Source of the DNA: Clytia hemisphaerica
Taxonomy: Eukaryota > Cnidaria > Hydrozoa > Leptothecata > Clytiidae
NCBI GenBank assembly: GCA_902728285.1
Contig: CACVBU010000349.1
Location: 520,384-584,383 of the forward strand
DNA: 64,000 nt
Direction: 5' to 3'
Shown: in pieces, positions 11,616 through 58,559 of the stretch
Layout: the number at the start of each line of letters is the position of its first letter
Position numbering within the stretch: position 1 is the stretch's first letter
Program-made: the position numbers and the translations under genes
The notes under the pieces: model-generated
Told to the model about the DNA's origin: nothing
Database searches by the model: none
What the model saw: only the letters and a program-made list of their open reading frames with translations

Positions 11616-14600
11616 CTGAAATAAAAAAAAAGTTTTTTAAAAGGAAACTTAACGAATTACTTTTTAGCATTTCAAGTTTCAAAAAGAATTTATTTCAATT
11701 CCAAAATTACAAATTACCAGTCCATCAAATAGCCTGATAATCCCTTTAAGGAAACAATAGTATTCCCTCATAGGTTACCGTTTGTCAAGTTCGATTGTCA
11801 AGAAGAATTGAGAAAAGAGAAATTTCATCGAATATGGCAGCGTATGGAATACAAGATAAATATGGAATTATAGAGCTGGAGAGAAAAATATGGGTGAAAC
11901 CCTATTCATTTGAACACGTATCAGTAGAAATATTGAAAGATCTTATGAGCAAAATTGAACAAACATCGAAATAGAGAGCGTCAAATCTCCAACTCTAATA
12001 CAAAGGAAGAGCAAAAAACAGTCTAAAGTTCGTATATACCAATTTTGGATTCTATTTTGGATTCCATCTCTTCATTATTTTTCACCTCCTCAGGTTTTTC
12101 TTCATCTTTGTCAGGCAGTAAAATCATATTGATGCTGTTTTCAATATTATCCACCAAGCTTTGCTTTTCTGCTTCCAGTTTGGCTTGTTGCTTGTCCTGT
12201 TCATCATCTTTTGTTTTGTCTTCTTCTGGTGGTGTATCCAGGGCTTTAATGGTGAAATCCAGCTGAAAATTTAAGGTGTGAAGAAAATTAGTTTACTTTC
12301 TTAACAATAAACGGGAAGGACAGAATGATTACTCTCAAGTGCCTAAGTCGGTGTTTTTTACACTTTGGGCGAAAACGTGACACTTTTTTTCTCGCCAAAA
12401 ACAGTTTTTTTGGTATGAAATAAAGAAAAATGAGCATTTTAGGATGAAAAGTTCCACAAAGACGCAAAATCGGATTGTACATATGTGATTGTTTTTTGTT
12501 CGAGCGGAGAGGGATTAGATATTCCAAAAATGAAGATTTTCTGTTTCTCTCTCAAGAAGGGGAATTTTGAGTTTTTCCCAAGCCTGATACTAAGGTATAT
12601 AGTGAGATAACATTGACTCATTTTCTAACGGTGGTCAAATTTTCACTTTTTTGCCCAAAGTGTAAAGTGTAAAAAACACCGACCTAAGGTCTAATTGATA
12701 ATAAACAGGTACGCCTGTTTGTTTTATATTTTTACTTGAGATTGTTTTTGCTATTTTTGCTCCGGCCTAGGAGCCTTTAATTCTCTCTTCCGACAATGGT
12801 CAAGACATTTTTTTTTGTTTATCTAATCCGATGATCTATTCCGATTCAATAAAAACGGATTATCTGGATTCCGATAATATTGTGATTTGATCGGCCGAAA
12901 GTATTTAGAAAAAGATGGCTGCCGAAAGTGGGCTAGCTGACTGTGTAGCGAATGGGCAAATCTCAGTAAAAAATTGATCATTTTCATCATTATTCATGAT
13001 GCTTTGGACATGATTTATGAGAAGTTTGATGCATAACTGGTTCTCTAACAATGTGGAAAGACTTTGGAGAAATTTTGGCCATGAATCGTCAGCTGATCGA
13101 GTGCATCTTGCATATGGCTAACTTCTCTTCTAGACGCACAAAACCATAAAACTCTGTAACTTGACAATGAAACTTTCAAACACACAGCCATTGGAATTCA
13201 AAAGAGAATACTAAAATTACAACATTACAGTGCAAATTTGAAAACGATCTGAGTATTTTTTGTGGTGTCATGTCATATGTGTATGGCTGAAAATGATCCT
13301 GTTTTGTATTCATCGTTGTTGACTGGCTGGCGACCGTTCCTTTTGATTTTTCAAACCCGACAGATTTTTTACAAACATATCACTATGAGAATTCAATAAA
13401 GGATACTAAAACACAATTCCTGTGTAAATTTGAACAAGATTGGAGAAATTTTCACAGTGTTATATGGCTGAAAATGATCGTTTTTGGACTTTGTCGTAAT
13501 TTCATCGCGGCTGGCGACCGTTCCTTTTGATTTTTCAAACGCGACACAGATTTTTTACAAACATATCACTATGAGAATTCAGTAAAGGATACTAAAACAC
13601 AATTTCTGTGTAAATTTGAACAAGATTGGAGAAATTTTCACAGTGTTATGGCTGAAAATGATCGTGTTTGGACTTTGTCGTAATTTCATCGCGGCTGGCG
13701 ACCATTCCTTTTGATTTATTTCAAACGTGACACAGATTTTTTAAAAACATATCACTATGAGAATTCAGTAAAGGATACGAAAACACAATTCTGTGTAAAT
13801 TTGAACAAGACCGGAGAAATTTTCACAGTGTTATAACTGAAAATTATATTTTTTGGACTTTGTCGTAATTTCATTGGCTGGGGCGACCGTTCCAAAACAG
13901 GTTTTTTCTAAATACACTATTGTACCATTTTATTTGGTTTATCCTACTCTCCTCCAGGTATTATCCCAACAGAAAAAATAATGCTTAGCTAAAAGCTGTG
14001 GCCTCTGTGGCTATTTTTCTCCCGAAATTTTATCCGGACAATCAAATCAACGGCGCATCATGGCTTTGCTATTGGCAAGTTAAGAAAAAAATAAATTTAT
14101 AAGAACTTGGAAATATTGACTTCTAAATGTTTATCTCCTTTAGCTCCAATTTTGAACTTTTTAGTCGAGGATGAGTGGGCGGGGGTGGGGTTGGTTCTTT
14201 AGGCAAGAAAGTGCATGTGTAATCACTTAGAAGAACTAAACTTCCAGCTGGTTTATTTATTCATTAAGATTATTTCTCATACTCGCTCTGCAATAGAATT
14301 ATTACTTTGCTTTCTGATCTGTTCTGATTTAGTAGTTTGTGGGCAAGGTTCTAACACAACTAACTCAATAAACTCATCTTTCACATCTTTTGATCTCTTA
14401 AGCCGGAGCTTCCAGCGCAGCTGGTTTTTTAGGGTTTAGTTGTTAAACATTATCATATAATTCTTTTGGAAAGGTTGATTTCAGTCATCAACACATCTGT
14501 ATCGCTATCCCACTTCTAAGCCAATTTTCCCAACCGTTGGCCTCTACCATGGTGGCTTCCTTTGTCACTATATTACTTAGCCCCCTTTTTAAAACGATTG

Positions 14601-20600: not shown

Positions 20601-22292
20601 TTTATATTTGTTCCTTGCGCCAAATACACCAAAAGTAATTACTGCCTCCCGTCGAATATATACTGTGTATCATTTCCAGCCTGGCTACTGTACAAAAAAG
20701 ATATTTTGTTCCTCTAAAGAAGGGTGACAGACCAGTTTCCAGAGTATGGCAAGGCTGCACTTGAGGAAAAATTTGGAAATACCAAGTTCCCCACTTGAAA
20801 AGCGCACCTGATAAATTTTGGTCCGTACAAGGTGCACCTATATATACCTCGCAAATTGGCCCAAAAAAGCAAAAATTGCTAAAATTAGCTGCACTTGAGG
20901 AAAAAATAGTCGAACTCTGTACTTGGGGTTAAAAAACTGTCTGCATTTGCACCTGATACGAATGAACAAATAGGAAAATCCGGAATTTTCTGGAACATTT
21001 TTCAAAATTTCTCAGGATTTCCAAGTGAAAAAATTTCCATAAAACAGTGTTGTCCACAGGGGGTAATGGTTTTTTTCTGGAACTGCCCAATAGACCTTTT
21101 TGCCTTTGATATCATTTATAATGCAAGCATAGCCATTTTTCATAGAAATCATATAGATTTAAAAAAGATGAACCATTTTGAAAATGATGTCATTCAGTTA
21201 GTGGAAGTACTTTGATTTGCGAAGCGTCTTTACGTGACACAGAACAAGAGAAAATATCAAAAGAACAAAGGAACCCATAGCCACCATTTCACAACCTTGG
21301 GGAATCGCAATTTTACAGAAACGAATAAAGTATCTTCTGAAAATTACATTCTTCCCCATAAATGCAAAAATGTCTAATTGTCTTTTTAAACCGCCATGAA
21401 GTGTTATAAAATTCCTTATAGAATGACACATTCTCCTACTAAGAGGTTTAAAAAATGACGTAGAAGTAAGATTTAAGAAACTTTGAAAATCGATTACAAA
21501 ACCTACGTCATAACCACGGAGTGCTGACTTTTAGTTTTTAATGACTTGTTCTCACTTGTTTGGTTTTCGTAATAAAAAGAAAGTCGAAAATTGTGAACTT
21601 TGAACATGCTTTAAATGGAGGTATTTCCACTAACTGTCATTTATATGCAAAACTATGTAAATCTTGATTTGAAAAAAAAATTTAAAATATGCAAATCTGT
21701 TTCGGCAATCTAAAGTAGCTATGGAAAATGGCATGGCTGCTTGCATAAAAATGACATTAATGGCGAAAAGGTCTATTAGACAGAGAATGTTAACGTTAGG
21801 TATTATTCTCATCTCGAAAAATCAGGGTCATGGAACTAACAATATTGTTGACAATACTGTAGGAATCAGTCATTTCTGAAAGAAGCCACTCCCTGGAGGA
21901 CCCTGCCCCCTGTGTGATTTCTCAACATGCACGCAACAGAAGGTGTCTATTCATTTTCATTTCATGGGAGTAAGATAACAATTATGATGTTAAAAACTGA
22001 AATTATCATCCCATGTTATTTGTATTTTAGTGAAAGCAGTAAGTTTAACATGGCATAAAATGGATAAAAGAATGAACTTAAAATTTTTTACCGGTAAATT
22101 GGCAACTTCTACAATTTTTTCTGGTTGAAGGTTTACTTCAAAATCAAACCCTCCTTTCTGAGAGTCATCAACTGCATACTGAGAATTATCTTCTGACTTC
22201 CCTTCGTCGATAAAATTGTTCTCCGGACTGGCTTTTGTCAAAAGAGAATCGCCTTCGAGAGACTGAAGTGCATCTGTGAGAGCGTCCGCCAT
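9553..22292 (-). CDS. Chromodomain plus ten-finger C2H2 zinc-finger protein (four exons)
   Basis: Predicted nuclear DNA-binding protein of 877 residues. Exons: 22292-22092, 14783-14637, 12262-12040 and 11615-9553. All three introns have GT/AG borders and the phases agree (0, 0, 1). Exons 1-2 join within a chromodomain, from FEVNLQPEKIVEVANLP through DGSRSYRMKWKDTW to LVDQFW. Exon 3 is acidic and Lys/Glu-rich. Exon 4 has a basic stretch (GRKRKIQKVARSKKEPKK), then ten fingers from CNICGKVISNKYGLREH to CPFCERGCSNRSSLKRH; the ninth ends in Cys (C2HC). The C-terminal 300 residues are Gln/Thr-rich, like an activation domain. The start ATG is in GAAAATGG context. Introns 1 (7.3 kb) and 2 (2.4 kb) are swollen by mobile DNA. 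The combination of chromodomain and finger array in one protein is unusual. Target genes are unknown. The exon 1-2 link to exon 4 is inferred from phase and order and needs transcript support. Confidence 0.82.
12040..12262 (-). CDS. Exon 3: acidic linker
   Basis: 74 codons plus one base between TTTTCAG and GTATAT borders. It encodes a Lys/Glu/Asp-rich linker beginning LDFTIKALDTPPEEDKTKDD. The exon phase fits exons 2 and 4. No domain was recognised. Confidence 0.72.
12346..12683. mobile_element. MITE with TA borders in intron 3
   Basis: The ends GTCGGTGTTTTTTACAC and TTTGGGC are inverted copies of each other, and TA flanks both sides. It is non-coding and lies just upstream of exon 3 in the transcribed direction. 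Confidence 0.6.
13140..13905. repeat. About 184-bp tandem repeat in intron 2
   Basis: The motif CTGGCGACC(G/A)TTCC recurs at about 13327, 13511, 13695 and 13877 (spacings 184, 184, 182). Each unit contains ATATCACTATGAGAATTCA and TTCACAGTGTTAT. A more diverged copy precedes the array. No coding potential is evident. Confidence 0.85.
14637..14783 (-). CDS. Exon 2: second half of the chromodomain
   Basis: A 147-bp phase 0-0 exon between a TTTTCAG acceptor and a GTTTGT donor. It encodes DGSRSYRMKWKDTWIHEGL and LVDQFWTEQKH. The Tyr, the KWKDTW aromatic block and the C-terminal LVDQFW helix match chromodomain positions that form the methyl-lysine cage and closing helix. It is too short to show as a long open frame. 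Confidence 0.72.
14934..15503. mobile_element. hAT-like MITE with CAGGGG...CCCCTG ends
   Basis: The left end is CA, an 11-G run and TCGGTAGTAAAATCTCAG. The right end is its inverted copy, ending in a C-run and TG. CAGGG/CCCTG termini recall hAT elements, but no clean 8-bp target duplication is visible. Internal TTTTACTACC(A/T)GGG motifs repeat the subterminal sequence. It lies in intron 1. Confidence 0.6.
15880..17194 (+). pseudogene. Non-LTR retrotransposon (LINE) reverse transcriptase, 5' portion, degraded
   Basis: Frames at 16060-16575 and 16661-16978, with remnants before and after, encode a CR1/L2/jockey-type reverse transcriptase. Visible motifs are QSGFRHGHSTDTAV, ADLKKAFDTVDHQ, GVPQGSVLGPLLFLLYIND and the catalytic YADDT in the sequence between the two frames. 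Several frameshifts and stops break it. Sequence to 17194 encodes the following connection region (ALVMPHVNYCS). The 3' part continues at 19422-19700 after a 2.2 kb insertion. It lies antisense in intron 1 of the zinc-finger gene. Confidence 0.85.
17195..19421. mobile_element. 2.2 kb inverted-repeat element inserted in the LINE (AATA target duplication)
   Basis: The ends GGG(T/C)CAAATTGAAAAGT are inverted copies. AATA is duplicated on both sides (17191-17194, 19422-19425). Removing one duplication and the element rejoins the LINE frame through GIHNIEPSYL, so the borders are well determined. The element contains a large palindrome (17211-17942) and at least six full TCCTTCCGTGAC-type motifs in both orientations. 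No transposase is encoded. Confidence 0.8.
17211..17942. repeat. 0.73 kb near-perfect palindrome
   Basis: The two arms are about 330 bp each. The left starts TTAGTCGCGCGGCTGAGGTC and runs through GATAGAGCTC, GTGTATTACACCAAAGTCC and GGCCTATTTGTGGTA. The right arm is its inverse, and the centre is near 17570. The arms differ at only a few positions, so the structure is young or kept matched. Confidence 0.85.
19422..19700 (+). pseudogene. 3' end of the interrupted LINE
   Basis: This continues the reading direction of 15880-17194 with a typical LINE ORF2 C-terminus (NEVNLVSGRHQRTRFAAENN, then LWNNLPTEIK), with one in-frame stop before LWNNL. After about 19700 no coding similarity remains; sequence to about 19790 may be its 3' untranslated part. 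Confidence 0.75.
19795..20095. repeat. Cluster of TGCCGAGGCAAA-type short inverted motifs
   Basis: Variants of TTTGCCTCGGCA and TGCCGAGGCAAA occur at least six times in both orientations over 300 bp. They give potential short stem-loops, such as the pair around the A-run at 19875-19885. No coding is evident. Confidence 0.5.
20108..20361. mobile_element. MITE with TA duplication and CTCTTAGGTTCC ends
   Basis: CTCTTAGGTTCCAAATAAAC at the left is inverted at the right, with TA on both sides (20106-20107, 20362-20363). G-rich subterminal runs (GGGGGGTTGG) occur several times inside. It is non-coding. Confidence 0.75.
20362..21089. other. Intronic sequence with a short duplicated motif
   Basis: No gene was seen. 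CTGCACTTGAGGAAAAA occurs twice (about 20755 and 20890), suggesting an old duplication. The rest is AT-rich intron 1 sequence. Confidence 0.35.
21090..21776. mobile_element. Inverted-repeat element of the ATAGACCTTTTCGCC family
   Basis: The ends ATAGACCTTTTTGCC and its inverted counterpart bound a non-coding core that hosts a second MITE (21195-21636). The same terminal motif bounds the larger element at 28798-31559. Confidence 0.6.
21195..21636. mobile_element. MITE with 5-bp duplication TCATT
   Basis: The ends CAGTTAGTGGAAGTAC and its inverse are flanked by TCATT at 21190-21194 and 21637-21641. A related, shorter copy in the opposite orientation lies at 31706-32016 with its own 5-bp duplication. 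Two members with matching ends and different 5-bp duplications make the boundaries secure. Confidence 0.82.
22092..22292 (-). CDS. Exon 1 of the chromodomain zinc-finger gene
   Basis: 67 codons from ATG (22292-22290) to a GTAAAA donor at 22091. The upstream frame is open without another ATG, so this start is chosen. The exon encodes an acidic N-terminus and the first strand of the chromodomain (EVNLQPEKIVEV). The large element at 22564-28429 begins only 272 bp upstream of the start codon. Confidence 0.78.
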
Positions 22293-23060
22293 TTTCTTCA
22301 ACTTTCTTGCCCTTGTCGATGGTTGTGGGCACACTTACTGTTTATTCTTATGGTCTCTTTGCTCAGACATTCTTTTGTACGTGGAGCCAGCGAAACTTTT
22401 TTGGCAAATGAAAAATTGGAAAACGGCGCTTGTATTATTAGCCAGTAGATGCTTGATTTAAAATATCACAAAGTGAAATCTAAACGAAAAGCAGAAATTG
22501 TTGGAAGCTGGCTAAAAGACCCCCAGCAATGAAGCCCGTAATTGCAAAAGGTTCCATACACACTAGCCTGGGAATCCAAGCTCATAATTTTAGAAAAAAC
22601 AAAAAATACCTCACCTCACAAAGTTCTAAAATTATAGAGCTTGGTGCAGGTAGATTAGTCTGACACAGAATGTTATAAACAGTCTGTGTGTGAACCCTTG
22701 TTGACAGACTTTCTGAACTTTGGAAACCCAGGCAAACACACATAATCAACTTACCATAAAAACTCTTTCACAAGCTCTAAAGACTTTCAAAACTACTAAA
22801 AACCACATCAAAACATCAGCCACATGTATTTAGACTTCCAGCCAACAGCCATTTTGTTTCGAAATGAATCTATGTTTTCATTTTCATTTGTTTTCCTTTT
22901 TTCTGCAGAGTCAGCTTTTTCCATAAATTATGCGCGCGCATCGAAAATATCAAAATGCGCGCGAAAGTACTGCTAAGTAATACGCCAAAAGCTGGCCAAT
23001 CAGGCCGAACCTGCATTGCAGGGAAAAATCTCCCTGCAGGCGAGTTACCTGCACCAAGCG

Positions 23061-23966
23061 TTAATTTCTACGTCAGATGGCCGTAATGTAGAGTTTTTTG
23101 ATTCAATAATTATCGAATAAAAAAGCAAAGTGGAAACAAGAGAAATAGAGACAAAGTATTGAGTTCTGAAATATTTATTGTCGAAACGAGTTGAATGTAA
23201 AATGAAAATGTAATTTAAGTTTTTGCGTTGCTGCGTGGCTGCGTCTTGATGTAGGATTTGGGGTGACGTTGGGGATGTACCATGCAATATAAATGATAAC
23301 TTAAACGCCTAGGGCTGCGGGACAGCCACTGAGAAAGCCGCGGACGGCCTGAGGTGCGTAGCCGGAAGCTGTGAGCGACCTCGTAGCGGGTACTGCGTAG
23401 CAGTGTAGTGTCCTTAGCTTAATACCGTTGGGACTACGGTATGTCGTGACCTTAAAGTCCCGGTAGGACTTGTCGTGTGTGCCCGAAGGGCAGTGTGTAC
23501 TTGATCTAAACTAGCCGCTAACTATAAGTGTAAGGGGTTACGAAGTAACCCACACCCCCCTGATGATACATGGCACATCCCAAACTAGGCGGTCCCTGGA
23601 CTAAACATCCTCCGCGTATGAAAATGAGGTAAAACCTTGGGACCAAAAAGCGCCTTGACATCGTTGATTGGCCGTCGTCGTTGGCCGGTCGACGTCACCT
23701 AAAAAACGAAAGAAAAAAAACGAAAGAAAGCAAAGAAGGTAAGAGCTGGTGCTTATCCTTATTTTGGGCAAGTAAGGGCGGGTGGGAAATTCCAAAACAT
23801 TATGATTTTAAAAGAATGTGTTTCGATTTTCGGTCACGGTTTATAGGCTACAATTCAAGATGGCCACCAAGCGGGCGTGTGTTTGATGCGTAAGGGCGTA
23901 AGAGCCGTGATGGGCGTAGCGTTAGTCGCTTCCTCGAAATTAACATGAGCTAATGCTTAGCTCTAA
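23061..23966. mobile_element. TTAA-bounded hairpin element, short copy (906 bp)
   Basis: This copy begins TTAATTTCTACGTCAGATGG and ends with the stem-loop GAGCTAATGCTTAGCTC followed by TAA, next to another TTAA. Its first 499 bp and last 180 bp are shared, as far as read identically, with the longer copy that follows head to tail. The middle (23560-23786) is unique. No TIR and no protein were recognised. The minus-strand 76-80 residue frame in the head is shared only because the DNA is. Confidence 0.75.
23313..23556. repeat. Cluster of eight small stem-loops, copy 1
   Basis: Within 245 bp there are successive perfect or near-perfect hairpins: GGCTG/CAGCC, GCCG/CGGC, GAGGT/ACCTC (with an inner AGC/GCT), ACTGC/GCAGT, TACCGT/ACGGTA, AAGTCC/GGACTT, GCCC/GGGC and GGGTTAC/GTAACCC, mostly with loops of 3-7 nt. 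The region is much more GC-rich than its surroundings. It is repeated at 24219-24462. Confidence 0.85.
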
Positions 23967-24218
23967 TTAATTTCTACGTCAGATGGCCGTAATGTAGAGT
24001 TTTTTGATTCAATAATTATCGAATAAAAAAGCAAAGTGGAAACAAGAGAAATAGAGACAAAGTATTGAGTTCTGAAATATTTATTGTCGAAACGAGTTGA
24101 ATGTAAAATGAAAATGTAATTTAAGTTTTTGCGTTGCTGCGTGGCTGCGTCTTGATGTAGGATTTGGGGTGACGTTGGGGATGTACCATGCAATATAAAT
24201 GATAACTTAAACGCCTAG

Positions 24219-24462
24219 GGCTGCGGGACAGCCACTGAGAAAGCCGCGGACGGCCTGAGGTGCGTAGCCGGAAGCTGTGAGCGACCTCGTAGCGGGTACT
24301 GCGTAGCAGTGTAGTGTCCTTAGCTTAATACCGTTGGGACTACGGTATGTCGTGACCTTAAAGTCCCGGTAGGACTTGTCGTGTGTGCCCGAAGGGCAGT
24401 GTGTACTTGATCTAAACTAGCCGCTAACTATAAGTGTAAGGGGTTACGAAGTAACCCACACC
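24219..24462. repeat. Cluster of eight small stem-loops, copy 2
   Basis: This is the same stem-loop series as 23313-23556 at an offset of 906 bp. I see no difference between the two on reading. Confidence 0.85.
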
Positions 24463-24611
24463 CCCAAAACCACCGCCAAATCTAACATAGGATCGCCATT
24501 ACGCATAGAACGTTTATGATCGCTATGGGTCCCGAGACAGGTCTTAAGAGTAGATAAGATGATTAGGGTCGTTGCCTAAACCAGAGGTAACGCCAAGGGT
24601 GATTAAAAAGA

Positions 24612-25680
24612 ACGCATGATGCCGTAAGACGGCACGAAAATTGAAAACTTGAGCCGCGGGACGGCATGATAAACTGAATTTTGAGTCACGGGACGGGATG
24701 AAAATTGAAGAGCTAAGCCGCGGGACGGCATAGTAAAATTGGCAAATTAAGCCGCGGAACGGCATGAAAATTGAAGAGCTAAGCCGCAGGAAGGCATAGT
24801 AAAATTGGCAAATTAAGCCGCGGGACGGCTAGACTAGAGTCAACTTCTGGCTGAACTTTGCTTTTTGATGATTTTTGATGACGCTGAGTCCAGTGAAGTA
24901 GACTAGGAGCGTTTGGCGAGGTCGCCATTATGAAAAAGAATGTTTAAAATCCAAATAACAAAAAAAACTACTTGGAGTTGAAAGATATAATCAAAATGAG
25001 AAACAAACATCAATAACAGATTTGCAATCCCTTATTCTCAAATAAAAACATTGCTTCATACTGTTTTTATCTTCCAAAAACAACTAAAATCTGGCGGACT
25101 GTTTTACAGTCCGCCTAAGCAAAAGCATATTACCATATACTACCGGGCCACTTAATCGCGCCATCCAGTCTATCGAAAGCTTTAAATGGACCCCGGGCTA
25201 CGGGACGGCATGAAAATAAAGAACTAAGCCGCAGGACGGCATAATAAAATGAAATTTTGAGCCGCGGGACGGCATGAAAATTGAAGAGCTAAGCTGCGGG
25301 ACGGCATAATAAAATTTGCAAAATAAGCTGCGGGACGGCATGAGAATTGAAGAGCTAAGCCGCGGAACGGCATAATAATAAAGTTGGCAAGTTGAGCTGC
25401 AGGACATCACGATAAAATTAAATTTTTGGCATGGAAATTGAAAAGATAAGCCGCGGGACGGCATAATAATAAAGTTGGCAAGTTGAGCTGCAGGACATCA
25501 CGATAAAATTAAATTTTTGGCATGGAAATTGAAAAGATAAGCCGCGGGACGGCATGATAAAGTTGAAAATCTAAGTTGTGGGGCGGCATGAAAATTTTAA
25601 AACTTGAGCTGCGAGACGATGTGGTGAAAATGAAAGTTCAAGCCACAGGGTAGGATGATAAAACTGTCAAATGCTAACCG
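24612..25680. repeat. Hairpin minisatellite GCCGCGGGACGGC
   Basis: About 20 units of 32-37 bp, in two blocks (24612-24835 and 25193-25680) with a stray pair at about 26340. Each unit starts with the hairpin GCCG-CGGGA-CGGC followed by an AT spacer. Spacers tend to alternate between a GAAAATTGAAGAGCTAA type and a TAAAATTGGCAAATTAA type, giving dimers of about 66 bp. Between the blocks lies a larger perfect hairpin, GGCGGACTGT/ACAGTCCGCC, at about 25093-25115. Confidence 0.85.
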
Positions 25681-25789
25681 CACTGGTTTAACTTCAGTAT
25701 CTTTGAAATCATTCGTAGGCCCAATTGTAAACTTAATGGCTTAAGAAAAATTATAGCATTTTGGGTTTTAGCCTCGTTTAGGCTAAAAA

Positions 25790-26340
25790 CCTGTCAAAAT
25801 TTTGAAAAAATGAAAAAATAATTCCCAGGGATTTGCCCAAGGATCAAGTGTGCAAAATTTCAACCCAATCGGACCAATCTTTAAGTCTCCAACCTGCCCC
25901 AAAGTTTGACCCTCGTTTTGGCGAAAAACTCGTCCCCAGGCCCCAAAATTCAAAATCTTGAAAAAATGAAAAAACTCCCCCAGGGATTTGCCCAAGGATC
26001 AAGTGTGCAAAATTTCAACCCAATCGTACCAATCTTTAAGTCTCCAACCTGCCCCAAAGTTTTAGCCTCGTTTTGGCGAAAAACTTGTCCCCAGGCCCCA
26101 AAAATCTAAATCTTGAAAAAATGAAAAAACTCCCCCAGGGATTTACCCAAGGATCAAGTGTGCAAAATTTCGACCCAATCGGACCAATTTTGAAGTCTCC
26201 AACCTGCCCCAAAGTTTTAGCCCCGTTTTGGCGAAAAACTCGTCCCCAGGCCCCAAAATTCAAAATTTTGAAAAAAATGAAAAAAGCACCCCCAGGGATT
26301 TGCCCAAGGATCAAGTGTGCAAAATTTCAGCCCAATTTTA
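25790..26340. repeat. About 156-bp tandem array
   Basis: TTGAAAAAATGAAAAAA recurs at about 25802, 25958, 26113 and 26268. Units contain CCCAGGGATTTGCCCAAGG and GTCTCCAACCTGCCCCAAAG. The open frames on both strands follow the periodicity and are not genes. Sequence from 26600 to 27530 has degenerate related pieces. Confidence 0.85.
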
Positions 26341-28937
26341 ACCGCGGGACGGCATGAAATTGAAAATTTGAGCTGTGGGACAGCATGACGAAAATGAAAA
26401 GTTTTGTGGTAATCAAGTTTATTCATGAATTAGACTCTCGCATAAAAAGGATAGCGACAAAATGTAATATGCCTCTAAACTGACTATGAGCACAGTAATT
26501 ATCCCCCAATGGACAGTTTTCCCTAGTTAGATTGGAAGTGCTTACAACACCAGCTCAGCTTCGGCATCTTCATAGTCTCCCAGAGGCCAATTGTAAACCC
26601 ACATGCTAATTAAGACTGAGGAATTACCCAAGGAGCAAATGTGCAAAATTCCAGCCAAATCGACTCACTCTAAAGTATCCTGTAAACTAAGTAAACTGAG
26701 TAATGGTGTTATATATTGGCGTTATGGGGTGTGACAACACCCTTGAATCATATTACATTGAAAATGAAGACAAACTACCCAGGGATTCGCCCAAGGACCA
26801 TGATTGCAAATTTTTGCCTTTCAAACACTTCAGAGATCCCAAGTATGTCCAAATTTCGACTTAGTTCTCAGCCTTTAATTGGTGACCCTAAAACTAAATT
26901 GCAAAACTGAAAAGTGGGGAAACGCCCCAGTGAATTCACCTGAAGCGCAATATGCTCGAAATTGAAGCGGATTCGGACAATTTCGAGGTCTCCAGCCTGC
27001 CCACTTTTTGTACCAAGTTTAGGACAAACCAGTAACCCCATCCCCAAAATCTAATAGAGTATGAAGCACGCCCAGGGATACACTCAAGAACTTGTGTGCA
27101 AAATTCACACCAATCAACCTCTAGGGGGAATAACAGAACACTCCTAGGATTCCAAGGAACAAGCATGCAAAATATTAACTACTTCAAAGTATTGACCAAG
27201 GAATGCCAGAACCTATGAGTACGTCCCTCCCATCTAAATTCAATTAAAATGAGAGGAATGCCCCAAGGACTTATACCCAAGGGACTTAAATGTACAAAAC
27301 TTTAGCAAAATCAGCCAACTCCCAAGAAGAATGAAGAATGCTCCAAGGACTCACCCAAGGAACTTAAATGTAAGATAAATGTAAAAAAAAAGAAGAAGAA
27401 GAATGCCCCAAGGACTCACTCGAGGAACTACATGTACAAGACTTTAGCAAAATCAGCCAACTCCCAAGAAGAATAAAGAATGCTCCAAGGACTCACCCAA
27501 GGAACTTAAATGTACAAACTTTAACAAAATCAGCCGACCCCCAGGTCCTGAGCATGCATCCAGGTGACGACCAACATCTGCACATGCACCCACGTACACC
27601 CACACACTGACAGACACACTTTAATTCTAAATAGCTCAACTGAAGTTGAGAAAGTCTAAATAAAAAACGGGATAGTTGAACCATGTTGAAACTAGTGCAG
27701 GGAATCCAGCTAGGGTGAGGCATAATAATAGTCAGTGTGCTATTAGAGACGCATGTGGGAATGCTGGACACGTATAGATGGGACAACAAACTCTAAAAAG
27801 GAAACGACTCACCCAGCAAACTTGGAGTTGTTGATGGAATCTAGGTCACAACAGGGCAGGACTGGCAGGAAGCACTCCGCTGATTGGTTTGTGGAGGTTG
27901 ACAGGCAAGCCAAGGCCACGTTACGGCCACAAATGGATTGGGAACGGTCTCGAAAGGTCACCACATTTCGCTGATTCTCAAATCAACCAGGTCGAATGTA
28001 AACACACAAGAAAGGGAAGTTGCAATGTTCAGTATCCCAAAATTTGATTGATACCATGCACGACAGAATGCCAAATAATTTACACAAAGATGGTTCCAAC
28101 TACGACAGGATCAACGAGTTACAACAGCTTGATTAAATTTACAGAATAAAATTTCCAAGAATCCACATGACTTCACTCATCAAATTCCAAAACATTATGA
28201 TTTTAAAAGAATGTGTTTCGATTTTCGGTCACGGTTTATAGGCTACAATTCAAGATGGCCACCAAGCGGGCGTGTGTTTGATGCGTAAGGGCGTAAGAGC
28301 CGTGATGGGCGTAGCGTTAGTCGCTTCCTCGAAATTAACATGAGCTAATGCTTAGCTCTAATTAAACCAGCAGCAAAAATAACATAAACTAGACTGTGAA
28401 AAAAGTTTAACGCTTGGATTCCCAGGCTACATACACACGAGCAGTCAAGAAATATCAAAGTTAGGACTAAAAGAAGGCTGACTGGACTGCAAAACAGGTA
28501 TACCTATGTCATATTTATTTGAATTGATTGGAAATATAATATCCCCTAAATGAATCCATAGGTATCTTGCCAACCGTTTCCACGAGTATTATTTCAATTT
28601 GATGATTCGAGCAAGTGTTGCCAAAAAAAAAAAAGGAACCTAACCATCTAGGGGTAGGGTGCTGGTGGGTTGGCAGACAATCAATATCATCCACCAGACG
28701 ATATCACCCACCAGGATTTTCAATCTGCAGAACCTAGGCTGGGGCTCGGTTATTATCAGTTAAGGTTAGGGTTGGTGGTTGGAGCTTGAGAGAGTCAATA
28801 GACCTTTTCGCCTTTCCATCCGCCATCTTGAATTGTATGCAAAAATACAGGAACAAAAAAGCTGTGGTTGGATTTAGTTGGAAAGTATGCAAAACATATG
28901 CAAGTTTACACAAAGATTAAAATGACAACAAAGCATC

Positions 28938-29413
28938 TTATAACCAGACGATCTCAATGGAACGGAATCAATGATCGAACCAATCGAACGCAATCGACCG
29001 ATTGAAATTCGATTGGCGAACGCAATCGAACGTCAAAATTCTGGGTAATATTCGATTGGTTCGATTGTTGTTCGACTGGTTTGATCATCAATTCCATTCG
29101 ATTGAGATCGTCTGGCTTTATTCTTGCAGCTTCCCAACATCCAAGCTCTCAAACATCACAAGCCGAATGAAATTACTTTCGATTTCCCGTAGAAATTATG
29201 CGATGAACAATCCGGGGGTCAATGAATCGACGATCGAACGTAATGGAACATCAATCAAACGCAAACGAATATCAATCGAATCTGAAAATTGCAGTAATAT
29301 TCAATTGAGATTCGATTGTGTTCGACAATCGAATTTCGATCGGTCGATTGTGTTTGATTTGGTTAGACTGGTTCGACCATCAATTCCGTTCGATTGAGAT
29401 AGTCTGGTTATAA
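28938..29413. mobile_element. MITE rich in CAATCGA motifs, TTATAA borders
   Basis: CCAGACGATCTCAATGG at the left is inverted at the right, and both ends abut TTATAA. The interior is crowded with CAATCGA/TCGATTG words in both orientations. The open frame here follows that repetition. Confidence 0.65.
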
Positions 29414-29676
29414 ATAAATATTATACATAATCATTAGAACAATAAAAGATGGAATTTCTTCTTAATCCAAAAAGAAATATTTACAGAACAAAAAAGCCTT
29501 TTAGAAAAATCCACGAAGACGGAATATACACACTGTTCCATCCCGTGTGTTTTGCCGTACCAAGTTGACTGTTTTTGATAAAAATTTTCTTTGGTCAACT
29601 TGGTATACTTTCAATGAACATGGTAAGGCTAAAAAAAAAATGGTATCCTTACTTAATAGTGGGACACTTTTATAGC

Positions 29677-30960: not shown

Positions 30961-31659
30961 ACCAAGCTTACTGTATCACTTGGGGAACCAAATTAGTTAT
31001 CAGAAGTAAATATGAGCGAGCTGTGGATAAAAATCGGCACCTGTCAACTTGGTACGCAAATGGTCAACGTGGTACAATCGGCCGTTTCAGTCAACATGGT
31101 ACGGGCAATCAACATGGTATGGAACACACAACATGGTATGGAACACACACATCAAACTTACACAACACGCAATCTGAAAGCAGTAATTATGACGTCACAA
31201 TGTTTTGATTTGATCCATTTGGGCGGTTCCATTCCCAGGAGAATAATTTACCGTCAGCCGAATAAGGATTATATTTGTACCTTCGCGGGTGATTTTTCAG
31301 CTTGAGTTTATGTCTAATGTTATGGTTTTTTGAAGTGCTTGGTTCTAAGAGATGAGCGAATTTGATAATTTCTAGTTTTCAAAAGAAGCAAATTTAATCT
31401 TTCTTCTACAAGATTACACTTTAATATAATGCCAATTATGCATGTAAGTTTTATATTAATACCTTCTTTTTGCATATGTTTTGCATACTTTCTAAGGGTA
31501 TTTAACCACGGCAATTCAGCCACCATAATTTTTGCATATGGAAAGGCGAAAAGGTCTATATAAGGCTGAAGGCCTTCTTAGGGGCATTCCGTACCCTCTG
31601 AGACTTTTAATTAATTTCTGTAAATTACACGCTATAAGTATTTGTGAATGACAGCTTTC

Positions 31660-33969: not shown

Positions 33970-34063
33970 ATAACAAAACCCCCGTTGCAAATTTATCAAA
34001 ATCTGTGTACATCAGAGATCTCAATAAAGAAATCGATGATCGTCAAGAGTCTATAAGCAAAAG

Positions 34064-35447
34064 TTGTTTTCTGAATCGAACCTGAACATTAAACTTGAGA
34101 AATTTTCTGGATATTCAGATAGTATCGATATTTATACCTTCAAGTCAAAATTTGAAAAGCTACACCTCAAAACTACTCCGAAACATCTACTTGCTGATTT
34201 ACTCAAGAATAACTATCTGAAGGAACCAGCCCTGAGTTGTGTCAAAACTCAAGATGACATAGACGAAATTTGGGATCGACTGTATCAAGCCTATGGGAAC
34301 GTCATGCTCATCCTCCAAAGAAAAATCAACCAACTGACGTCATCAAGTTCCATTCAACGCTCCAAAGACACTGGATCAATCATTGAATCAATGACCAATA
34401 TTGTCAACCTCATCAAGGACCTTACATCTTTGGCAAGGGAACATCACGTCGAGAATTATCTGTATTACGGTGGTGCAATCAACAAAGTCTATAACCTGCT
34501 TGGTGATGCCAGGCTATCAAGATGGTTAACACAGATATCAAACGTCACTCTTAAAACCTGAGGAGACTTGGTCAAAACTGTGCACCTTCCTCGAAGATGA
34601 GCTGAAAATCCAACACCAGAAGCTGACAGTGAAATCAAGCATTCGAGACAACAAGACCGATAACAAACGTCCAAACAACCAAGATTCATCCAAACGAACC
34701 GGATCAAATCAAGACTCATCAAAGAACAACGGGACTCAGAGGTATGGATTTTCTTCTTTTCCTTCCATACCTCAATCTGAGCCCATTTGCTTTATCTGTG
34801 GTGCAAAAGACGGAACTGATGAACATGTATCCACTCTTGGTCCTGGAGGCACCAGGATTCTTCAGTACTACACCTGCAAGAAGTTTGTAGAATTAAGTCC
34901 AGCTGATAGACTCTCATTACTAAGAAGCAAAAGATACTGCTTTCAGTGTCTTTTTCCAGGTGCTGATGCTTCATCACCCAAGCACAAAGCACCTGCCCAA
35001 ATCCTATCCACCAGAAGTATCCAATCAAAAAACACGTCCTTGTTTGCAACGACCACAAGGAGGATCAAGTCAACAAAGATTTGTTATCAACTTACAAACA
35101 ACGCTGTGTCCGAAGCTCCAATCTGCCAGAATTTTCCAAAAACATCAGTTTATCATTTCATGCACATGAATCGTTCAAGACGACTCCGACATCTGGTGAT
35201 AAAGAATCAACTGACCAGCGTGGTATCTACATGCTACAAACAATCTCAATTGACAACACCCCGTACACTATCTTCTATGACACAGGGTGTAGTGACTTTA
35301 TCGTCAAACGTTCAGCCATTCAATCACTTGGTTCAAGAGCTACAAAAATGTCATCCCAAGTTACGTCCATCGGCGGAGTTGGTCAAACATCATTGCAGTC
35401 ATTTGGAACCTTCAACGTCAAAATCCCAATGCACGATGGCAATTTAG
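34064..35447 (+). pseudogene. BEL copy 1 gag (DUF1759-type), frameshifted
   Basis: This is the same protein as 41174-42556 but split by a one-base insertion near 34554 into 34064-34561 and 34629-35447. It contains the capsid-like LNIKLEKFSGYSDSIDIYTF block and the Cys-rich region (CFICGAKDG, YCFQCLFPG). The insertion should prevent a full Gag product from this copy. Confidence 0.85.
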
Positions 35448-38400
35448 CATCATTCAATGGCATATCACTTGATACGATAACCGCTACCTTTCCACAGTAT
35501 CCACTCACTGATGTTTACACGGAGATTGCTCAAAGCTACCACTCATCCGATCATTGTTCAACTCAACTTCCATCTGTACCTTCAAGTATCGGAGGAGATG
35601 TCCACTTCATGGTTGGTATTAGCTATTTACGATATCACCCAAAAGTCGTATATCAACTTGCGTCAGGACTGACGATCTATGAATCAGTTTTCAACAACCA
35701 AGATGGTGGTCGTGGGGTTATTGGAGGACCTCATGAGATTTTCACGAAAATTCATCAAACATTCTTCAATCAAACCAACTTCCTTGGATTTTTGAGTGAT
35801 CAATTATCATTGTACCGAACTGGAATTCAAGTGAATCCAGATGTCAACAAGTTATTTTCTTACTCATCGTATCCCATCAAGCAATTCGAAGAGATAGAAT
35901 CAACTGGTTCAACCATATCTTATCGGTGCATCAAGTGCAGAGAATGCAACGATTGTAAGAATTCAAACATCCCAGAGGAAATCAGCATCAAAGAAGAATA
36001 TGAGCAGAACATCATTGATTCTTCTGTTAAAATCGACCCTGATACGAAAATTGTCACTGCAACTCTACCCTTTGTTGCAGACCCTCTCACCAAGTTGGCA
36101 CCAAACAAGAGCATCGCCCTGAAGATATATCACCAACAACTTCGAAAACTCAACAACTCTCCATCAGATAAAGTCGAAATCATTTCATCTGAATCAAAAC
36201 TTCAAGATCTTGGTTTTGTGGACTACATTGAAAATCTTAATGCTCAACAACAATCAATGCTCAAGGACACATCGATCCACAACTTCATACCTTGGAGAGT
36301 CGTATGGAAGGCTTCATCTGTCACAACTCCTTGTAGAATCGTTTTCGATGGATCACACCCAACATCAACTGGCTTTAGCATCAACGATTTACTGGCTAAA
36401 GGTCACAATAGTCTCAATAAACTCCAGGAAATACTCATCCGTTGGACAATCCATCCCATCGGCTTTCATACTGACATTAGAAAAATGTACAAGACCATTA
36501 GACTCCACGAATCCCATTGGTGTTACCAACGTTACCTCTGGGAAGAATCACTTGACTCAACCAAAGCTCCAAAAGAAAAGATCATAAAGACTTTGATCTA
36601 TGGCATTCGTCCAAGTGGCAATCAAGCCGAATACGCCCTTCGTTCGATCTCGACATCCTTCAAAGATCAATATCCCAAAGTTGACGAAATCCTCCAACAC
36701 GACGTCTATGTTGATGATTGTATAACAGGTGCATCAACTATTCCAGATGCACACCAAAGAGCTGATGAAATTGAATTCGTCCTGAGTCATGGTAATTTCA
36801 AGCTAAAAGGAATCACGTTTTCCGGATCTGATCCACCAGAACAGCTAACGGATGATGGTGTCACAATTGGCGTCGGAGGCATGATATGGCACCCCAAAAC
36901 CGATGAGCTCTCAATCAATATATCCGAATTGAATTTTTCAAAGAAACGTAGAGGGAAGAAATCAACTGAAACCATCAATATCATCCCAGAACGATTGACA
37001 AGACGTCACTGTGCTTCTAAAGTCGCAGAAATCTTCGACCTTACCGGACGAATCGCACCAATTGTTGCTACTCTCAAGCTCAATCTCCACGAACTTTCAA
37101 CTCGACAACTCGAATGGGATGATAAGATTCCAGACGAACTTCGCCCAATCTGGCTAGATCATTTCGAGATGATGCAAGAGATTCCAAATATCAAATTCAA
37201 ACGTGCTGTTATTCCCTCAGATGCAACTTCATTAAAAGTCAATACCGTAGATTTTGGGGATGCATCTCAATCACTCATCTGCACTGCAATTTACGCTCGT
37301 TTTCCTCGACCTCATGGGGAATTTTCATCACAACTCATCTTCGCCAGAACTAAAGTCGTACCAAAAGATTACACTCTACCTCGGGCAGAATTATTTGCTG
37401 CTCTTGTAAACACTCACACAAGCGAAATCGTTAAACGATCATTGAAAAGTCTTCATGATTCATCTATCAAGCTGACCGATAGCCAAATTGCAATGTACTG
37501 GATAAGCAATGACGACAAACCTTTGAAAAAGTGGGTTCGAAGTCGCGTCTTAGAAATCCTTCGTTTCTCGGACAAGAAAGATTGGTACTACGTTCCAACA
37601 GATCAAAACCTTGCAGACCTTGGCACCAGAAGAGGAGCCACATTCCAGGATATCGACCAATCATCTAATTGGATCAATGGACATCAGTGGATGAAGCAAT
37701 CACAGTCATCATTTCCCATCCAATCAGCATCTGAAGTTACGATCTCCAACAAACAGATGGTTGAAATCAACAAGGAACATACTATCGTTCAAAGTTATCA
37801 CATCTTATCATTCAAAGAAACATCTGAAAGGTATAAATTCTCTCAATACCTTCTGAACCCAAATCAACACAAGTTTTCTACAGTTATTCGTATCATGGCA
37901 ATCGTCTTCAAGTATATTTACACTCTAATCAAACGTACAAAAGATAAATCTCGTTCCCAACTCACCATGATGAAACAATCAACCATTCTCATTAACGATG
38001 ACGAGATCAAAGCTGCTGAGACGTATTTCTACAGGAAAGCATCACAAGAGATAATTCAATTCCTTCCAAAATCAAAATATGAAAATATCACCAGACTCAA
38101 CGACAATGGAATCTTGGTGTACACTGGTCGAATCCTCGCCGATGATCAAGTATCCATAGTTGGACGTTTCACCAAATCAATGAAAGATTTATCTTCGACA
38201 TCCTTTTGTGTACCAGTTATAGACAGAGGATCACCAATTGCATATAGTATCATCCTCGACACACATTGGAATCATCCAGAAGTCAGTCATGCTGGGATAG
38301 AGTCCACACTTCGCTATGTCCTCAAGAAAGTTTACATCCTTGAAGGTCGAATTCTTATCAAATCCATCAAAAGTTCGTGTCAACGTTGCAAGTTTTTGGC

Positions 38401-39433
38401 CAAACGAACCATCGACATGGCTATGGGTCCAATCTCCAGATGCAATATCACCATAGCTCCAGCATTCTTCTACACCCAAGTCGACCTATCTGGACCGTTT
38501 GTATGCTACACACCACATCATAAACGAAAGACAGTTAAAATATGGTTGGCTGTCTTCTGCTGTTGCTCTACATCAGCTGTCAAAATCAAGGTTATGGACG
38601 ATTATGGAACGACATCATTCATCCTTGCTTTCAATCGCTTCTCCTGTGACCACGGTTACCCGAAACGACTTCTTTGTGACGAAGGAGGTCAACTCATCAA
38701 AGCCTGCAAAGAAATGCGACTTGATTTCATCGATATCAAATCCAAACTGATGAAACAAGCACGTGTTGAGTTCGAATTATGTCCAGTTCAAGGCCACTCA
38801 ATGCATGGAAAATTAGAACGAAAAATTCGTGAAATCAACAGTTCGATCGAAAAATCTGTTCACAACCAACGTCTTTCAATCCTTCAGTGGGAAACGTTAT
38901 CATCATCTATTGGCAATCAAATTAACAACTTGCCCTTGGCTGTTGGTAACATTGTGGGAGACTTCGAATGTCTCGACTTGATAACGCCGAATCGTTTACT
39001 ATTGGGACGAAACAATAATCGTTGCCCCACTGGCATTCTATCATCTACCAACCCATCAAATATCATCAAGGAGAACCAATTCATCTTCAATGCCTGGTTT
39101 GAAGTTTGGCTTCTCGTCCATGTGCCAAAACTCATGCACCAGCCAAAATGGTTTACATCAGACAAAATCAACGTTGGCGATATCATCTTGTTCACCAAAA
39201 ACGAATCAGTTCTGTCAAACTCGTACACCTATGGAATCGTCAAGAGTCTCGAATTCGGTCGTGATGGCGTGGCACGTAAGGCCATCATTCGATATCGTAA
39301 CGAAAATGAAAACGTATTTCGAGAAACAAAGCGAGCTGTTCGATCATTGGTCGTTATTCATCACGTGGACGATTGTGATATGATGAAAGAGTTGGGTGAA
39401 ATGGCTTTATATGTTGATTTGATTCGTAAATGA
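35081..39433 (+). CDS. pol: BEL copy 1 Pol polyprotein
   Basis: A 1450-codon frame with an aspartic protease (FYDTGCSD), a Pao-type reverse transcriptase (YVDDC), RNase H, and an integrase with an HHCC-type zinc module (ending SSCQRCK) and a D, D, E series (QVDLSG, LCDEGG, HGKLER). The frame opens at a TTG with no ATG, as expected for expression by frameshift from gag. Compared with copy 2 it has Lys for Asn in the RKMY(N)TI motif and Leu for Val beside the catalytic Glu. These look like derived changes, so copy 1 is probably the decaying one. Confidence 0.88.
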   Translation: MLSTYKQRCVRSSNLPEFSKNISLSFHAHESFKTTPTSGDKESTDQRGIYMLQTISIDNTPYTIFYDTGCSDFIVKRSAIQSLGSRATKMSSQVTSIGGVGQTSLQSFGTFNVKIPMHDGNLASFNGISLDTITATFPQYPLTDVYTEIAQSYHSSDHCSTQLPSVPSSIGGDVHFMVGISYLRYHPKVVYQLASGLTIYESVFNNQDGGRGVIGGPHEIFTKIHQTFFNQTNFLGFLSDQLSLYRTGIQVNPDVNKLFSYSSYPIKQFEEIESTGSTISYRCIKCRECNDCKNSNIPEEISIKEEYEQNIIDSSVKIDPDTKIVTATLPFVADPLTKLAPNKSIALKIYHQQLRKLNNSPSDKVEIISSESKLQDLGFVDYIENLNAQQQSMLKDTSIHNFIPWRVVWKASSVTTPCRIVFDGSHPTSTGFSINDLLAKGHNSLNKLQEILIRWTIHPIGFHTDIRKMYKTIRLHESHWCYQRYLWEESLDSTKAPKEKIIKTLIYGIRPSGNQAEYALRSISTSFKDQYPKVDEILQHDVYVDDCITGASTIPDAHQRADEIEFVLSHGNFKLKGITFSGSDPPEQLTDDGVTIGVGGMIWHPKTDELSINISELNFSKKRRGKKSTETINIIPERLTRRHCASKVAEIFDLTGRIAPIVATLKLNLHELSTRQLEWDDKIPDELRPIWLDHFEMMQEIPNIKFKRAVIPSDATSLKVNTVDFGDASQSLICTAIYARFPRPHGEFSSQLIFARTKVVPKDYTLPRAELFAALVNTHTSEIVKRSLKSLHDSSIKLTDSQIAMYWISNDDKPLKKWVRSRVLEILRFSDKKDWYYVPTDQNLADLGTRRGATFQDIDQSSNWINGHQWMKQSQSSFPIQSASEVTISNKQMVEINKEHTIVQSYHILSFKETSERYKFSQYLLNPNQHKFSTVIRIMAIVFKYIYTLIKRTKDKSRSQLTMMKQSTILINDDEIKAAETYFYRKASQEIIQFLPKSKYENITRLNDNGILVYTGRILADDQVSIVGRFTKSMKDLSSTSFCVPVIDRGSPIAYSIILDTHWNHPEVSHAGIESTLRYVLKKVYILEGRILIKSIKSSCQRCKFLAKRTIDMAMGPISRCNITIAPAFFYTQVDLSGPFVCYTPHHKRKTVKIWLAVFCCCSTSAVKIKVMDDYGTTSFILAFNRFSCDHGYPKRLLCDEGGQLIKACKEMRLDFIDIKSKLMKQARVEFELCPVQGHSMHGKLERKIREINSSIEKSVHNQRLSILQWETLSSSIGNQINNLPLAVGNIVGDFECLDLITPNRLLLGRNNNRCPTGILSSTNPSNIIKENQFIFNAWFEVWLLVHVPKLMHQPKWFTSDKINVGDIILFTKNESVLSNSYTYGIVKSLEFGRDGVARKAIIRYRNENENVFRETKRAVRSLVVIHHVDDCDMMKELGEMALYVDLIRK

Positions 39434-39473
39434 ATTCGTAAATTATGGTACATGTTTGCTTTTTTGGTGGGAG

Positions 39474-40281
39474 TGTAATGTGATTCATCAAATTTTTAGT
39501 ATATTTAAAAAAGCAAAAATATTTTATAGTTCAATTTTCAGTGTCTTGTTTTTGTCAGTGTCTTTTTGTCCCCAGCGTCCTTTGTTTTCCCAGTGCTTTC
39601 TTTTTCAGCGTCTTTTCTCTCTTGTGCATTCTCGTGTTTCATGCGTCATTTGTTTTGTTCTATGTTTTAAAGTCATTTATCTATGTTATCAATTATTTCA
39701 AATACTTTGTCAGTTATTATCATTTTGTCATTTAGTCATTTAGTAATTAATTATTTCACACGCATTTTATTTAATTATCATTTGATTTCTCAAGAGTGTT
39801 ATATATTCATTGTTTTTATATCTTGTCAAACTAGTTTTTTTGTATCAAATTTATTATAAAAAGGCCAACTTTTTCTCACTCGCTACTTAGTCACTTGTGA
39901 CTATGACTATGAGAGAGTCAACATCAATATGACTTCAAATGACAAATGACAATAATCAGAATTTTACTTCAATTTCAACTTTGTATTTTCACTGGCTCAC
40001 ATTTCCAGCACACATTCTTGGCCAGCTGGTAGGTTTTTCTTGTTTCTTGTTTGCACTTTTTCTGTTTTCTTTGTTTCTTTTGCATAGTGACTGTTCAGGC
40101 CTTAGGTTAAGTTAAGTTAGGCTCTACTTGTCAAATACATTTATAATTCAAGGCTCAATTTATTTTGTTAATTAGAAACTTAGGAATTTTCATTCATTTT
40201 ATTTTTTAGTTTGAACTTGAACCTCAATATCAATTCAATCAACGTTACAAATTCTTGTCTGTGTGTGTGCGTGGACTTACA
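39474..40281 (+). repeat. BEL LTR shared by copy 1 (3') and copy 2 (5')
   Basis: 808 bp, starting TGTAATGTG and ending GTGGACTTACA (TG...CA). It follows a purine-rich tract GGTGGGAG that is a good polypurine-tract candidate. It differs from the downstream LTR (46583-47390) by about four changes, two of them single-base indels. It serves as the 3' LTR of the truncated copy and the 5' LTR of the complete one. Confidence 0.88.
39855..39861 (+). promoter_or_regulatory. TATA-like box in the 5' LTR
   Basis: TATAAAA followed by AGGCC lies in the middle of the LTR, with the same motif at 46964-46970 in the second LTR. This is a plausible core promoter for the element's genomic RNA; the transcription start is not determined. 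Confidence 0.5.
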
Positions 40282-46542: not shown

Positions 46543-46582
46543 ATTCGTAAATTATGGTAAATGTTTGCTTTTTTGGTGGGAG

Positions 46583-58521: not shown

Positions 58522-58559
58522 TACTTTTTATAATATTCTGAAAGAATGAAGAAAAAAAA

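Follow-up and report, generated by a model that had tools for sequence, protein, structure and literature searches.

What kind of mobile element leaves two adjoining units that share both of their ends and have different interiors? The question is raised by a locus of the hydrozoan Clytia hemisphaerica (contig CACVBU010000349.1), within a stretch of 64,000 nucleotides that was analysed as a whole (the window, to which all positions refer). Here, unit 1 (906 bp) and unit 2 (4395 bp) lie head to tail on the + strand. The answer that we consider likely is that one non-autonomous rolling-circle family of the Helitron2/Helentron branch, similar to the non-coding members known as HINEs, inserted here twice. 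In their ends, layout, insertion site and lack of detected genes, the two units fit this branch, because they combine an asymmetric inverted repeat with a 3′ hairpin and central tandem repeats, lie at a site compatible with entry between two Ts (T^T) and have yielded no coding domain.

Two units with common ends and an internal empty site

Each unit is built from a constant head and a constant tail. The identity of the heads spans exactly 499 bp, and that of the tails 180 bp, or 184 bp when the border TTAA is included (23787-23970 and 28182-28365), giving 683 of 683 equal positions for head, tail and TTAA combined. The identity stops at the borders and does not extend on either outer side. TTAA stands at 23061, 23967 and 28362, and thus at all three junctions, in a window where this tetranucleotide is frequent (412 in 64 kb). 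A preliminary description of the locus had reported two head-to-tail units with a 499-bp head and a tail of about 180 bp, junctions on TTAA and unrelated interiors; the coordinates and identities hold position by position (Table 1), and the unit 1 interior (query 23560-23790) found only itself in the window by blastn (E up to 1e-3). There are no other copies in the window beyond the two units. As the shared positions show no difference at all, either both units are of recent origin, or their copies were homogenised or collapsed during assembly.

The age of the arrangement aside, its starting point can be read directly, as the nested layout reveals the exact empty site and no second genome is needed for it. 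The units interrupt a non-coding element resembling a miniature inverted-repeat transposable element, which measures 565 bp after rejoining and has a terminal inverted repeat matching at 18/18 bp and a target duplication of 9 bp, CATACACAC. Target duplications of 9 bp are typical for Mutator-like elements. CCAAGCGTTAAAC pairs at 13/13 positions with 28405-28417 to form the terminal stem of the outer element, and excising the units restores this stem at the right end exactly (CCAAGCGTTAAAC against GTTTAACGCTTGG); the pre-insertion sequence is therefore GCG-TTAA-AC, with a single TTAA. The internal check of the pre-insertion site that had been proposed for this locus is firmer than was claimed, by virtue of the terminal repeat and duplication of the outer element. 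The empty site, GCGTTAAAC, contains no AT dinucleotide and is compatible with T^T insertion without duplication, and equally with duplication of TTAA. Stem-forming stretches were also seen close to both ends of the outer element (22555-28438, including the duplications).

Table 1. Positions of the features described in the text (. = no strand assigned).
Feature	Positions	Strand	Basis or remark
Unit 1	23061..23966	+	906 bp
Unit 2	23967..28361	+	4395 bp
Unit 1 head	23061..23559	+	499/499 identity to 23967-24465
Unit 2 head	23967..24465	+	499/499 identity to 23061-23559
Unit 1 tail	23787..23966	+	180/180 identity to 28182-28361
Unit 2 tail	28182..28361	+	180/180 identity to 23787-23966
5′ asymmetric inverted repeat TTAATTTC, unit 1	23061..23068	+	
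5′ asymmetric inverted repeat TTAATTTC, unit 2	23967..23974	+	
3′ asymmetric inverted repeat GAAATTAA (+ strand reading), unit 1, 3 nt before 3′ hairpin	23936..23943	-	
3′ asymmetric inverted repeat GAAATTAA (+ strand reading), unit 2	28331..28338	-	
3′ hairpin GAGCTAA-TGC-TTAGCTC, unit 1	23947..23963	+	shuffle test, DNA fold
3′ hairpin GAGCTAA-TGC-TTAGCTC, unit 2	28342..28358	+	shuffle test
Weak 5′ hairpin TCTAC/GTAGA, unit 1, not above chance	23067..23092	+	shuffle test, DNA fold
Tail/head junction, 39-bp compound palindrome	23936..23974	.	15/19 position pairs complementary
Six perfect short hairpins, unit 1 head; three triloops, all C(GNA)G	23313..23551	+	0/2000 shuffles reach six
Same hairpin cluster, unit 2 head	24219..24457	+	identity of heads
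32-34-bp minisatellite with GCCG/CGGC hairpin, block 1, unit 2 interior	24628..24829	+	repeat analysis
32-34-bp minisatellite with GCCG/CGGC hairpin, block 2, unit 2 interior	25201..25602	+	repeat analysis
155-bp tandem repeat, 3.5 copies, unit 2 interior	25794..26336	+	repeat analysis
Outer element, left part; 18-bp terminal inverted repeat at 22564-22581	22564..23060	+	inverted-repeat comparison
Outer element, right part; 18-bp terminal inverted repeat at 28412-28429	28362..28429	+	inverted-repeat comparison
Outer element, target duplication, left copy, 9 bp CATACACAC	22555..22563	.	
Outer element, target duplication, right copy, 9 bp CATACACAC	28430..28438	.	

Asymmetric repeats and the Helitron2/Helentron branch

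The ends of the units carry an 8-bp asymmetric inverted repeat. Its left copy, TTAATTTC, begins at the 5′ border, while the inverse, GAAATTAA, lies 3 nt upstream of the 3′ hairpin and, depending on the cut register, 23-27 nt from the 3′ end. The repeat was spotted by eye before its shuffle test was made. In this test the last sixty bases were shuffled and searched for an inverted copy of any of the three 8-mers that the first ten bases contain; one was present in 105 of 20000 shuffles (0.00525). A free scan of the window for an 8-mer together with a hairpin and the inverted 8-mer upstream of it returns many matches, and so the repeat counts only because its 5′ end was fixed beforehand by the border. 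At the other + strand sites of TTAATTTC (14623, 31611) and GAAATTAA (19068, 56919), reading by eye found no comparable end. The perfect 3′ stem-loop named in the preliminary description, with a 7-bp stem and a 3-nt loop, is above chance (32/5000 shuffles; DNA fold z -1.9, 8/200 shuffles as good). The statement that the units lack terminal inverted repeats holds for symmetric ones, since only 3 of the first 8 and 6 of 20 positions agree inward from TTAA, and a repeat search found no inverted pair of at least 14 nt between the unit ends; the asymmetric pair had been missed.

These ends are not those of a canonical Helitron (Helitron1: 5′-TC, CTRR-3′, a hairpin 10-12 nt before the 3′ end, A^T insertion). 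The units begin with TTAATTTC, their empty site has no AT and their 3′ hairpin lies 3-7 nt from the border, although CTAA is present at the 3′ end in one register. The initial view that TTAA targets and the missing A/T insertion dinucleotide do not suit ordinary Helitrons thus agrees with the ends found here, and its hint at Helitron-like or single-strand transposons is borne out by features of the Helitron2/Helentron branch. The defining traits of Helitron2 are a 5′ hairpin and asymmetric repeats 8-15 bp long, of which the 3′ copy precedes a hairpin and lies about 20-30 bp from the end (PMC3627910). The units share with it the asymmetric inverted repeat, the position of the 3′ copy just upstream of the hairpin and the 5′ T and, if read without duplication, they are also like Helitron-1N1_CRe, which is described as having none (PMC3627910). 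They differ in that Helitron2 of Chlamydomonas is stated to insert after TTTT whereas the borders here are TTAA, in the weakness of the 5′ hairpin that is a defining trait of Helitron2, and in showing no Rep-helicase in the part of their coding potential that was scanned, as given below (PMC3627910).

Closer in overall design are the non-coding relatives. Helentrons and HINEs are described with subterminal repeats, a 3′ stem-loop, often central repeats and a TT target that is left unmodified, and the DINE-1/Helentron-associated HINEs resemble the units in being non-coding, with subterminal inverted repeats, a 3′ stem-loop and, in some, central repeats (PMC4067079). Mite HINEs, in contrast, have palindromic repeats of 12-15 bp, with the 3′ one 38-60 bp from the end, against 8 bp and 23-27 in the units (PMC4067079). 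Cg_HINE of Crassostrea gigas is likewise built of a left and a right module, with subterminal inverted repeats, the right one followed by a palindrome, and with a satellite-like centre that can differ between related modules; it is reported to insert at a TT target without duplication, with which the site of the units is compatible (PMC7492417). Its inverted repeats are normally 11-12 bp, however, and the left one carries its own complementary inverted repeat, while the 8-bp repeat, the 499-bp head with many hairpins and the TTAA borders distinguish the units (PMC7492417). FoHeli of Fusarium oxysporum shares asymmetric repeats, hairpins and, in one case, a near-tandem insertion, and evidence for joined-end circles has been given (PMC5148889). 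Unlike the units, FoHeli1/2 have 12-bp repeats, TCAG/ATTTT ends and a TNAT^T target, and coding members of FoHeli are known (PMC5148889). Tandem Helitron copies as such are on record (PMC5148889, PMC5876387).

With regard to coding content, 32 stop-to-stop open reading frames (ORFs) of at least 55 aa overlap the units. The nine of these that were scanned with Pfam gave no match above the cut-off and a single weak one (E 0.096); in particular, these nine contain no Y1, TnpB-like or transposase domain. The family is probably an unnamed one of an already known kind: the earlier proposal of an undescribed non-autonomous family does not call for an undescribed kind, as the Helitron2/Helentron branch has such traits. 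It would add modular elements of Helentron/Helitron2 type with satellite filler in a hydrozoan; literature searches for Clytia hemisphaerica with Helitron and for Helentron with Cnidaria returned no Clytia work by title, and one for HLE2 returned nothing.

We infer the rolling-circle mechanism, the partner enzyme, the exact nick register and the order of insertion along the following lines. In each unit, an exchangeable filler is flanked on the left by a constant module of 499 bp, which carries the 5′ asymmetric repeat, and on the right by one of 180 bp, which carries the 3′ repeat and terminal hairpin. A Rep-helicase supplied by an unseen autonomous partner would nick the 5′ end and peel off the + strand toward the 3′ end, stopping where the 3′ repeat and hairpin meet the border. 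A circular intermediate, such as has been demonstrated for Helraiser, a canonical Helitron (PMC5876387), would then enter a TTAA site between its two Ts, leaving no duplication. As TTAA is common to element and site, any of five cut registers fits. The ends re-create TTAA, so that the second copy could have used the border of the first as its target, which would yield head-to-tail units with different interiors. One circle copied twice would give equal interiors; the differing interiors thus point either to two separate insertions, with the later one at the border of the earlier, or to an exchange between relatives through the identical ends.

Several observations weigh against assignment to this branch. 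All evidence comes from a single locus, and exact patterns of head and tail gave 0 matches in viral contigs (three patterns) and in bacterial and archaeal contigs (one pattern), collections that are not made for animal genomes and from which near records may be left out, so that these negatives carry little weight. Unit 1, the inner copy, is complete, whereas inner tandem copies are reported to be often 3′-truncated (PMC7492417). At 8 bp, the repeat only just reaches the Helitron2 range and falls short of the 11 bp of the Helentron family rule (PMC4067079). The 5′ stem-loop reported initially does exist, but it is expected by chance (790/5000 shuffles; DNA fold z +0.22, 107/200 as good), and its 5-bp stem overlaps the 5′ repeat by 2 bases. 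No Rep-helicase was found among the nine unit ORFs scanned, the rest of the window having been left out of that search. Finally, TTAA at every border exceeds what a TT target needs, as AA follows only 5.6% of the TT in the window.

The TTAA borders and competing explanations

How, then, are the four-base borders to be understood? If T^T is correct, the extra AA of the target would be either luck or a preference for sites like the 5′ end. The element's 5′ repeat itself starts with the four bases of the target, TTAA. The host TTAA at the right border occupies the place that the TTAA of the 5′ repeat has at the tail/head junction, and it is consequently complementary to the TTAA of the 3′ repeat, such that base pairing between the 3′ repeat and the target is conceivable in principle. 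The junction itself reads GAAATTAA-CAT-GAGCTAA-TGC-TTAGCTC-TAA-TTAATTTC, and its pairing count is the second-highest of all 39-mers in the window (the top is 17, at 55847). In the minimum-energy DNA fold of the tail, AATTA (23938-23942) pairs with TAATT (23964-23968), using only the first two TTAA bases, while in the centroid fold both the 3′ repeat stretch and the border stretch are unpaired; pairing of TTAA with the repeat was not chosen.

One competing explanation is a TTAA-duplicating cut-and-paste transposon of piggyBac or Kolobok type, non-autonomous copies of which would have entered one site twice, the second through the duplicated TTAA. This would account for the TTAA at each of the three borders and for the single one in the rejoined empty site, and explains the 4-bp match and the tandem without coincidence. 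We nevertheless judge it unlikely, since the ends form no symmetric terminal inverted repeat (3/8 and 6/20 agree, with no inverted pair of at least 14 nt), the TTAATTTC/GAAATTAA repeat, which spans the supposed duplication, would be left to chance (0.005), and the nine scanned ORFs hold no transposase. A literature search found no TTAA elements described without terminal inverted repeats. The tandem could also be a product of assembly or recombination, in which the 499- and 180-bp repeats let two separate insertions join wrongly. The repeats are indeed identical (683/683 with TTAA), short reads could misjoin them and the locus is single; still, the tail/head junction needs a source, there is no N anywhere in the window and both outer borders fit one empty site exactly, which makes a misjoin improbable in our view.

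Least credible, to the point that we give it very little weight, is a single-strand HUH (Y1) element of IS200/IS605 type inserting 3′ of TTAA with subterminal hairpins and no duplication: the border hairpin, a sequence directly 5′ of that hairpin with complementarity to the target TTAA (as in IS608), the lack of a symmetric terminal repeat and the possibly duplication-free site agree with it, but the 5′ hairpin is not above chance, the tail fold pairs in a shifted register that takes in only the first two TTAA bases, the nine ORFs scanned of the 32 contain no Y1 or TnpB-like domain, and we know of no eukaryotic Y1 family of such a sort. A large satellite-filled interior is, moreover, typical of HINEs instead (PMC7492417).

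Hairpins, unit interiors and neighbouring features

Returning to the units as Helitron2/Helentron-like insertions, their heads are rich in local hairpins. The region 23310-23559, selected after the hairpins had been seen, has six perfect ones (5-7 bp) against 1.1 in shuffles. By separate scan criteria, the two heads are the densest hairpin places in the whole window, with 6 per 350 bp compared to a mean of 0.55. The window has 129 triloop hairpins of at least 5 bp. Seven of them are C(GNA)G, and six of these seven are in the two heads, where all three + strand triloops per head (3/3) are of this type. DNA mini-hairpins of C(GNA)G type have high stability. The cluster gives no evidence of a folded RNA: its global RNA fold is no stabler than shuffles (z +1.29, 181/200 as good), which leaves a set of local hairpins. 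Rfam returned three matches up to E 1 for 22000-29500, all under the gathering score and all outside the units.

Because the + strand is the one transposed in Helraiser (PMC5876387), a role of the cluster on a displaced + strand is possible. Plus-strand circles of Helraiser were reported not to integrate as single strands and not to be made double-stranded, and complement synthesis was proposed at the donor fork instead (PMC5876387); a cluster used as a start site would therefore have to act there. A more specific proposal, to which we assign a low likelihood, is that a family of the Helitron2 branch chooses its target by pairing GAAATTAA with TTAA, as with its own 5′ end TTAATTTC in the joined-end circle, the C(GNA)G array acting on the displaced + strand. 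If true, this would work like the pairing of guide and target in IS608, would give a four-base TTAA specificity and would explain tandem insertion at the family's own borders, with the array as a device, for example, for starting complement synthesis. Such a rule cannot be general to the branch, because the targets of FoHeli1/2 and of the Chlamydomonas elements, as stated, do not copy the 5′ end; at best it would apply to the Clytia family. Should the TTAA preference be real, it would provide a direct test of the role of the Helitron2 asymmetric repeats, for which a function as end point of replication has been suggested (PMC3627910).

The filler of unit 2 (24466-28181, 3716 bp) contains a 32-34-bp minisatellite in two blocks, and also tandem repeats of 91, 155 and 77 bp. 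The minisatellite hairpin, GCCG-CGGGA-CGGC, is similar to a head hairpin, GGCTG-CGGGA-CAGCC, and the filler looks as though it had been amplified from head sequence. Of 22 copies of the 34-bp repeat, 11 form the complete set of four Watson-Crick pairs, in one case through a paired change; in the other 11, three have one or two G-T wobbles and eight are broken. With eight broken copies and one paired change, selection on this hairpin through compensatory change is not shown.

Elsewhere in the window, the one ORF searched, a zinc-finger ORF (9553-11694), is best matched by a protein of Clytia hemisphaerica, with 100% identity across 96% of the query. A long retroelement-like stretch with long ORFs is present as two direct copies (33992-40281 and 41102-47390) that are 99.8% identical, with an early reading frame that is split in the first and open in the second; by eye, we take them to be of BEL/Pao type. 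A 401-aa ORF on the - strand (57322-58527) matches the rva_4 integrase core in Pfam (E 3.2e-22). Tandem arrays at 53188-54921, with spacings of about 264 bp and about 87 bp, repeat CGGGACTG...CAGTCCCG hairpins and are another hairpin-bearing satellite. Adjoining the units, inverted matches between 28798-28819 and 31538-31559 (22/22) and between 28878-28900 and 31473-31495 (22/23) may mark the ends of another DNA element, about 2.7 kb long. The tails contain a 38-nt stretch (23827-23864, 28222-28259) with 74% complementarity to 28822-28859, inside the left end of this putative neighbouring element; the two have a common ACAATTCAAGATGGC-like core.

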